From positions 1 to 38,317 of IMG/VR virus record IMGVR_UViG_3300037296_000057: 38,317 nt of DNA; one strand, 5' to 3'. This document shows, in pieces, positions 33,659 to 38,317 of this stretch. The translations under genes were made by a program, and so were the position numbers. The stretch is from a virus. Every line of letters starts with the position of its first letter. Within the stretch, counting starts at the first letter, position 1. Below the pieces are notes generated by a model. That model did not search any database and was not told the origin of the DNA. It saw only the letters and a list, made by a program, of their open reading frames with translations.

Positions 33659-34105
33659 TTAGACCATCGCGTCGTCACCGTCGCCGTCGTCGTCGCCATC
33701 GCCACCGAAAGGGTCTTCACCCTCTTCATACGCGGTCAGGTAGCCCAGAGCTTCGTCGAACTGCTCGGGGTCAATCGTGGTGAAGCGGTCAGTGCCGAAG
33801 TGCTCGATGATCGTCTTGACCTGCAACTTGCGCTCTGCACGCTCTGCTGCGGTGCCGGTCTTCAGGAATGTAGTGACGCGCTCGGTCACGTCCTCGACGG
33901 TCGTCTCACCCTTTTGGGTGGTCGTCTTGGAACCGGCTGGCTTGCCTGCTGGCTTACCCGCTGGCTTGCCTGCTGGCTTATCCGCTGGCTTACCTGCTGG
34001 CTTACCTGCGGCAGCGCCGCCGACAGAGCTGATCATTTTGGTCATGGCTGCGGTGTTAGCTTCAAGGGCTTCCGCCAAGCGGACCATATTCTCTTCGATA
34101 GACAT
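33659..34105 (-). CDS. First leftward gene: AGKP-repeat protein with acidic tail
   Basis: A 148-aa protein of unknown function that heads the leftward gene series. It starts at ATG 34105 with AAAGGA 5 bases upstream. A longer frame to 34135 lacks this site. The N-terminal helix (NMVRLAEALEANTAAMTKM) may form a coiled coil. A linker of six Gly/Asp-Lys-Pro-Ala repeats follows (about 42-66), then a structured helical domain (VEDVTERVTTFLKTG, KLQVKTIIEHFG, FDEALGYLTAYEEG) and an Asp/Gly-rich tail. The basic histone-H1-like linker plus acidic end fit a DNA-associated early protein, which is inference. Confidence 0.8.
   Translation of the reverse strand: MSIEENMVRLAEALEANTAAMTKMISSVGGAAAGKPAGKPADKPAGKPAGKPAGKPAGSKTTTQKGETTVEDVTERVTTFLKTGTAAERAERKLQVKTIIEHFGTDRFTTIDPEQFDEALGYLTAYEEGEDPFGGDGDDDGDGDDAMV
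33937..34008 (-). repeat. Six tandem 12-bp coding repeats (Lys-Pro-Ala-Gly units)
   Basis: Six consecutive copies of a 12-bp unit of form GCTGGCTTRCCY (top strand), one with a change giving Asp in place of Gly. They encode the Gly-Lys-Pro-Ala linker in the first leftward protein. Copy number could vary by slippage without loss of frame. Confidence 0.9.
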
Positions 34106-34229: not shown

Positions 34230-34523
34230 ATGCCAACGTACAAATCGCCGGGGGATGCCGGTACGCCGCTGCACCGGCTCCTTCTAAAGGCCGTGCCGGA
34301 AAACCAGCATGGCAATAAGACGATCCTCCACCTCGCAAAGGTGATGGGGATCAACCGCTGGTCCATCAATAAGTGGGTGAAGGCGGACCGTCTGGCCCCC
34401 GAGCGCGTAGTGCAGCTCGTCGAGGTCAGTAAGATCAAAGAGTACCGCGAAGACGGGAAGCACGTTCTCGGAGAGGCCCGCGTGACCCGGGCAGAGTTCG
34501 ACCCGTTCGTTTACAACTTCTAA
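34230..34523 (+). CDS. Small helix-turn-helix transcription regulator
   Basis: A 97-aa protein and one of only two plus-strand genes. The start is ATG 34230 with GAGGA 6 bases upstream. The HTH lies at about 30-58: TILHLAKVMGINRWSINKWV then KADRLAPERVVQLVEVS, a Cro/YdaS-like arrangement in which the second helix (RWSINKWVK) would read DNA. The C-terminal segment (TRAEFDPFVYNF) ends in Tyr/Phe. It directly follows the divergent promoter pair, so it is a natural candidate to bind there and set the balance between the leftward genes and its own unit. It is not enough to call the phage temperate, because no integrase or second repressor is seen. Confidence 0.85.
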   Translation: MPTYKSPGDAGTPLHRLLLKAVPENQHGNKTILHLAKVMGINRWSINKWVKADRLAPERVVQLVEVSKIKEYREDGKHVLGEARVTRAEFDPFVYNF

Positions 34524-37296: not shown

Positions 37297-37326
37297 TCGA
37301 ACCACAAGACGCAAGTTTTGAATCAG

Positions 37327-37355
37327 CCCGGGGCTCTCACGAGTTCCGGGTTTTT
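37327..37355 (+). terminator. Intrinsic terminator behind primase-helicase gene
   Basis: CCCGGGGCT (37327-37335), a six-base loop and AGTTCCGGG (37342-37350) form a 9-bp stem with two G-T pairs, directly followed by TTTTT. It ends the rightward transcription unit 30 bases after the stop codon and separates it from the repeat region. Confidence 0.9.
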
Positions 37356-37990
37356 CTTTACCGGTTTTACCGAGATTACCGTATTTACCGAGTTTTGAGT
37401 CGGAATTTCAGTAAAACCGGTAAAAGTTACCGAGATTACCGAGATTACCAGCGTCCTTACGTTTTTGCCGTAATTTTCCGTTAGGTGCTAGGGCCATATA
37501 AATAAGGGGTTTGAGCGTCCCCACTTACGAATTACGGCAATTACGGCTTTTTCCCTATAGGCTGTCTCTGTCTCTCCGTGGCGCGTGGCGTGTGCAAACC
37601 GTGGCGGCAGCCTGCGCTTCCCCTCCTTGCTCTATAGTGTTTTAATGTAATAACCGTAATAAACGTAAGGTATAGAGCGATAACAAGGACTTAACGCCTC
37701 ACAAAACGCCTCACACCCACCTCACGCTTTTAGGCAGTCATTTCGGTCTAAATCCGGGCCCCACGGTAAAGCCGGTAAACTCGGTAAAAAATACCAGTGA
37801 AACCCCAGTACCCCAGCAAAAATCTCGTGAACCGGGGCTCAACGCCACCCCCCGGGGCTACGGGTACGAGGGAGGGACCCAAGCGACCCCCACGGTAAAC
37901 CGAGCGGCCCCCGTAAACCCGGTAAAAGGCCCCACCGTAAACCCGGTAAAAGGCCCCCACGGTAACAATGGTTAACCCGGTAAACCTCCC
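37356..37990. repeat. Noncoding iteron region with 9-bp-phased CGGTAA/TTACCG hexamers; candidate replication origin
   Basis: TTACCG occurs at 37358, 37367, 37376 and 37385, then at 37427, 37436 and (TTACCA) 37445, all spaced by 9 bases within each group. The opposite orientation CGGTAA occurs at 37764, 37773 and 37782, then at 37893, 37920, 37944, 37960 and 37978, with related CCGTAA at 37911 and 37935, again mostly 9 or 18 apart. The centre (about 37450-37720) is AT-richer and has TTACGG at 37532 and 37541, and nnGTAA at 37645, 37654 and 37663, also 9 apart. A 14-bp inverted repeat TTTACCGGTTTTAC joins 37357-37370 and 37411-37424. No credible gene is present. The place directly behind the primase-helicase gene and the outward-facing arrays suggest an origin. 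Base counting is direct; function is inference. Confidence 0.72.
37629..37678. repeat. Inverted repeat flanking a 9-bp-phased triplet
   Basis: GCTCTATA (37629-37636) and TATAGAGC (37671-37678) are perfect inverted copies around a 34-base AT-rich spacer, which contains ATGTAA, CCGTAA and ACGTAA at exact 9-base steps. It could be the core of the proposed origin (unwinding element) or an operator. Confidence 0.6.
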
Positions 37991-38160: not shown

Positions 38161-38317
38161 CGGCCCCCACGTCCAGCCCCCCACGGGAAGCGGCCCCCCT
38201 GTCCAGCTCCACCCACGGCCCGGCCCCCCTGTCCAGCTCCACCCACGGCCCGGCCCCCCTGTCCAGCTCCACCCACGGCCCGGCCCCCCTGTCCAGCTCC
38301 ACCCACGGCCCGGCCCC
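38161..38317. repeat. 30-bp tandem repeat, four perfect copies plus partial, running off the window
   Basis: Perfect units of 30 bases start at 38191, 38221, 38251 and 38281 with a seven-base remnant at 38311. A diverged copy precedes them at 38161. Each unit contains the core GTCCAGCTCC (38201, 38231, 38261, 38291). The array has no end within the window. Since 30 is divisible by three, all frames stay open and produce false repetitive proteins. The window may end here because the assembly could not pass the array. Confidence 0.93.

Follow-up and report, generated by a model that had tools for sequence, protein, structure and literature searches.

The window analysed here is a 38,317-bp stretch of viral DNA (positions 1 to 38,317 of IMG/VR virus record IMGVR_UViG_3300037296_000057). 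Its gene set is Chi/Enc34-like, with a gpA-type TerL, a lambda-type portal, an Enc34-type ssDNA-binding protein, a PolA-like polymerase, an SNF2-like helicase, a DUF2800 protein and VapE. The nearest named VapE is that of S-ESS1, a phage of the Casjensviridae. Gene order and a cos-like end indicate that the window is a Chi-like phage of this family.

The VapE-like domain of the window VapE spans residues 551-746 of 896. An AlphaFold2 model of the protein (mean pLDDT 89.4) contains a helix-helix-strand-strand unit at about residues 812-888, which is predicted to be a winged helix-like C-terminal domain. The best Foldseek match of the model was PriRep1 with dsDNA (7pds; E 2.6e-28, TM 0.79-0.82 on target), and a profile search of VapE against PriRep1 from the same entry gave E 2.1e-126. 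VapE is a structural homologue of PriRep1 with a predicted C-terminal DNA-binding domain. The VapE genes of such phages and satellites are still named virulence-associated protein.

Downstream of VapE, we observed TTACCG/CGGTAA repeats at exact 9-bp steps (37356-37990; Table 1). The first array begins 62 bp past the VapE stop (37296). We counted 24 exact 6-mer links at lag 9 in 37297-37990, compared to a mean of 0.27 and a maximum of 6 in 2000 dinucleotide shuffles, and 15 occurrences of the hexamer or its complement compared to 1.2 expected. In a scan of the window, the best 350-bp stretch held 28 lag-9 five-mer links, and ≤8 were found anywhere outside the array region. The arrays are unique in the window, with no comparable 350-bp stretch elsewhere. 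The arrays are mostly TTACCG on the left and CGGTAA on the right, and the groups fall in different registers. The original prediction had described separate groups of this hexamer at 9-base steps, mostly facing opposite ways on the two sides and mutually out of register, around a core with its own 9-bp GTAA series and beside a VapE gene; exact positions and the VapE profile match bore out each of these points. A satellite or an assembly artefact was rejected as the source of the repeats, because the groups do not share a register and isolated phages show the layout too.

Table 1. Coordinates of the VapE gene, the arrays and the cos-like site in the window.
Feature	Position	Strand	Evidence
VapE/PriRep-type primase-helicase, candidate initiator, 896 aa	34606-37296	+	PF05272 E 1.5e-63; phrog_256 E 1.1e-181
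Outer array A, four TTACCG at 9-bp steps (37358, 37367, 37376, 37385)	37358-37390	-	Exact positions; lag-9 test
Two oppositely facing sites, CAGTAA and CGGTAA (37418), 9 bp apart	37410-37423	+	Sequence
Outer array B, TTACCG (37427), TTACCG (37436) and TTACC (37445) at 9-bp steps	37427-37449	-	Exact positions
Left inner array, TTACGA then TTACGG, TTACGG (37532, 37541; 9 bp apart), CGTAA-type boxes	37525-37546	-	Sequence, layout comparison
Central segment separating the inner arrays, which are 106 bp apart by start position; 56% GC, with CTATAG at 37555 and 37632	37547-37646	.	Layout comparison
Right inner array, GTAA at 37647, 37656, 37665 (9-bp steps), opposed to left inner array	37647-37668	+	Sequence, layout comparison
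Outer array C, three CGGTAA at 9-bp steps (37764, 37773, 37782)	37764-37787	+	Exact positions
cos-like site GCTCAACGCCACC	about 37837-37849	.	Alignment with ends of several related contigs and Chi cohesive end GGTGCGCAGAGC
Further sites past the cos-like site: CGGTAA at 37893, 37920, 37944, 37960, 37978; GTAAA pairs 37913/37922 and 37937/37946 (9-bp steps)	37893-37984	+	Sequence

The inner boxes (TTACGG/CGTAA) differ by one base from the outer hexamer TTACCG. An AT-richer core had also been predicted. This core was patchy: GC content was 40% (37356-37450), 46% (37450-37546) and 39% (37647-37700), but 56% in the central segment (37547-37646), only slightly below the 61% of the genome. The central segment occupies the position of the AT-rich gap found in relatives. 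GC skew did not turn clearly at the arrays.

GGGGCTC(C/A)GCGCACCC forms the end of several related contigs and matches the reverse-complemented Chi-type cohesive end, GGTGCGCAGAGC (PMC4342425), in all but one or two bases. Because the cos-like site aligns at about 37837-37849, the sites at 37893-37984 would lie past the packaged end, at the other end of the packaged DNA, and would join the array only once the ends meet. We also observed a 30-bp GC-rich tandem repeat (38161-38317, 5.2 copies) past the cos-like site and up to the contig end, which may be an assembly stopping point. Salmonella phage Chi (KM458633; Casjensviridae) resembles the window in the order of its VapE-type primase gene, arrays and cos, with GGTTAC/TGTAAC arrays between gp2 (the VapE-type gene) and the cohesive end. 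Unlike the window, Chi uses another hexamer and mixed steps of 8, 9 and 11 bp, and most of its arrays are separated from VapE by a small HTH gene.

The position of the arrays between VapE and the cos end in Chi-like contigs, with some on both sides of it in the window, could suggest that the small terminase binds them as cosB-like packaging signals; elsewhere, two TTACCG arrays are found close to terminase genes. However, the same layout also occurs after VapE in phages JD419 and IME1320_01, where the terminase genes are kilobases distant, and after the primase-helicase genes of satellite phages. We consider a packaging role very unlikely.

In five VapE relatives and phage S-ESS1, VapE seemed to be followed by phased arrays that use other letters. 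We therefore gathered about 300 VapE loci (these and other contigs have L numbers below), and the VapE loci were reduced to 210 with dissimilar downstream DNA. The original prediction had proposed a search for phased hexamers near VapE in relatives, and the outcome did not refute it. We observed 417 lag-9 tandem hexamer events in the 600 bp after the stop, in 166 of these 210 non-redundant loci, compared to 36 after shuffling and 63 in the 600 bp upstream. With one locus taken per 60%-identity helicase-domain cluster, a lag-9 pair was present in 80% of loci compared to about 30% for lags 7, 10 and 14. The commonest steps of the best hexamer were 9 (204), 12 (94) and 8 (66). Downstream of VapE, the density of this hexamer was 34 times that of the remaining locus, and its upstream median was zero. 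Its letters varied widely: the 144 strong loci had 75 different best hexamers, a few of which were one motif caught at two offsets. When aligned, the best hexamers shared a loose common frame of about TG(G/T)nAACA with variable middle letters. The conserved feature is thus the step and the geometry, and the hexamer changes freely. Conservation of the step and not of the hexamer, like the cos end and the GC-rich middle, goes beyond what had been predicted. Many relatives (L117-L140) match only the helicase half of VapE, and in several of these (for example, L130, L127 and L134) arrays follow the helicase ORF.

Relatives, including Chi and several other isolated phages, also keep the inverted layout. 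A gap of 85-135 bp between two sites was present in 89 loci, and the flanking sites were opposed in 88 of them; the window, too, has opposed short iterons on two sides of a central segment. The tandem pair left of the gap had a step of 9 in 49 loci and 8 in 18, and the pair right of it a step of 9 in 34 and 8 in 12; other steps were rare on either side. The median gap was 109.5 bp. Gap GC content was below that of VapE in 90 of 90 loci. The relatives' gaps had 32-33% GC, whereas the window gap has 56% with AT-rich flanks such as 37647-37700. TATAGAG-type words were enriched in the gap (ATAGAG in 37 loci compared to 6.6 expected).

These distributions bear on whether the arrays are operators through which a small HTH protein controls transcription. 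A small HTH-like ORF does lie just upstream of VapE in the window (about 34230-34520; weak Pfam matches below cut-off), and Chi and S-ESS1 also encode regulators there. However, the hexamer is nearly absent upstream of VapE, and no annotated HTH gene adjoins VapE in phages IME1320_01 or StAB, both of which have arrays. We also know of no operator layout with an inverted gap of ~109 bp, which further argues against operators. Control of transcription by this protein is, in our view, extremely improbable as the function of the arrays.

To relate VapE residues to iteron letters, we performed four covariation tests. None gave a clear signal, and iteron identity followed the C-terminal domain of VapE no more closely than the helicase domain. 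When VapE columns were compared with iteron letters, neither mutual information nor matched-pair contrasts showed a C-terminal excess; both are limited by phylogeny and uneven alignment. A comparison of hexamers only overstated differences, as the same motif can be caught at another offset (L032/L033 and L245/L279), and was redone by cross-occupancy. L029 and L060 have helicases that are 95% identical and different hexamers.

In the nearest relative (L002, 8645-9090), the canonical layout is made up entirely of a GGTAGA set, and TTACCG triplets with an exact 9-bp step lie outside it. Because two hexamers coexist in this locus, the outer TTACCG arrays may have a second reader. Two systems could then be nested, with only the inner TTACGG/CGTAA boxes of the window serving as VapE iterons and the outer arrays binding a second phage protein (terminase or regulator). 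The one-base difference between the inner and outer hexamers of the window is consistent with this. In most loci, however, inner and outer groups share one hexamer, and TTACCG triplets elsewhere also follow helicase genes. We regard nested systems as rather unlikely.

Arrays were present in the non-coding gap after VapE in Corynebacterium phages IME1320_01 and StAB, and Staphylococcus phage JD419 has a looser set of sites there. Croceibacter phage P2559Y and Bacteroides phage BF486P3 had no arrays after VapE, and the next gene starts at once. As a reverse test, all viral contigs were searched for TTACCGNNNTTACCGNNNTTACCG (TTACCG triplets) by DNA alone. This search returned many coding repeats and dense non-coding arrays, and led to four primase-helicase gene families that end just before arrays. 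The gene ending just before the TTACCG array encoded VapE in L366 and L385, Prim-Pol/D5 in L371, a DUF5906 helicase in L350, DUF927 with a Cch helix-turn-helix domain in L348 and L370, and a PriCT_1 primase in L358. In L346, L352, L354 and L373, dense non-coding TTACCG arrays had no recognised helicase adjoining; those of L346 (3686-3969) and L373 (1946-2190) are close to terminase genes.

The same layout was observed in phages and satellites with DUF927 or D5 helicases. Streptococcus satellite phages Javan432 (L439, 3120-3444) and Javan296 (L440, 3084-3453) carry mirrored arrays with 9- and 8-bp steps after the primase gene, including a triplet at 9-bp steps in Javan432. Mycobacteriophage Taquito (L441, 3309-3539) has mirrored GGGGACAT arrays, mostly with 10-12 bp steps, directly after the primase gene, and these are likely an origin. 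Katzastrophic had no such layout and no gap after the helicase gene. Single-protein searches for further DUF927 and D5 relatives returned near copies only.

Iteron plasmid origins (RepA/Pi type) resemble the window in having initiator-bound direct repeats beside the opening segment. They differ in that the initiator is not a helicase, the repeats are longer and host DnaA/DnaB is needed. The SaPI origin has an AT-rich segment with an iteron set on each side. According to one report (PMC7581432; for SaPI, Ubeda et al. 2007 as cited there), the origins of SaPI and SCC elements directly follow the rep/helicase gene. As in SaPI, the gene for a self-loading primase-helicase in the window is followed by the candidate origin with repeated short iterons, and the proteins are homologous (7PDS), so the comparison with SaPIs in the original prediction holds. 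Unlike SaPI, the window is a Chi-like tailed phage, its arrays abut cos, its hexamers are different, its middle is GC-rich and binding of its arrays by VapE is a prediction. In the same report, the C-terminal domain of SCCmec Cch2 bound its iterons (PMC7581432). Cch2 and its putative origin resemble the window in this C-terminal DNA-binding domain and in the short direct repeats just downstream, and by our own arithmetic the three 5-nt iterons in the 23-bp repeat region would fit a 9-bp step. Cch2 is described there as a D5/Primase_Cterm helicase without a fused primase, with three iterons only, and belongs to an SCC element and not a phage. Overall, the assignment of the array locus to the SaPI/SCC origin type is supported.

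The same layout, spelled in different letters, recurs in hundreds of distant relatives, so the locus is very probably a replication start. We consider it very probable that this Chi-like phage replicates from an origin that spans the DNA between the VapE stop codon and the cos end, and that VapE loads there in the manner of SaPI and SCC elements. Weighing against this reading are the covariation results, the 56% GC of the centre and the four dense TTACCG arrays elsewhere that adjoin no recognised helicase. We infer that the neighbouring VapE would read the hexamers as iterons through its winged-helix-like C-terminal domain, and that 9-bp tandem sites would set adjacent subunits side by side. 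Two helicase rings could be positioned by the opposed inner arrays, about 106 bp apart. DNA would open between these arrays or next to them, and the rings would start two forks. The N-terminal part of VapE would then prime and the phage PolA-like enzyme would extend.

A broader proposal, which we consider about as likely as not, is that the origins of self-loading phage and satellite helicases (VapE, D5/DUF5906 and DUF927/Cch) share one geometry. Inner iteron pairs with steps of 9 (or 8) bp would mirror each other across about 109 bp that contain a CTCTATA box, and the letters would change even among close relatives. Subunit packing on DNA would fix the spacing, and the letters would drift like an incompatibility code. 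Origins designed like that of the window, with iteron rows just after a helicase gene, have so far been described mainly for Staphylococcus mobile islands. We found no description of arrays after VapE in phages in the freely available literature searched; within that literature, the breadth of the origin type and the fixed step with changing letters look undescribed. These data predict where the origin lies in Chi-like phages and in a very large number of phages and satellites with VapE. Origin reading by a self-loading helicase would become a simple test, with a fixed 9-bp geometry and interchangeable letters. Near-identical helicases that would read different hexamers, such as the L029/L060 pair, are ready for it.

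Elsewhere in the window, we observed a 12/24-bp tandem repeat within a small leftward ORF (33932-34009). An ORF in L005 (4772-5236) with Lys-Pro-Ala-Gly-rich repeats looks related to it.
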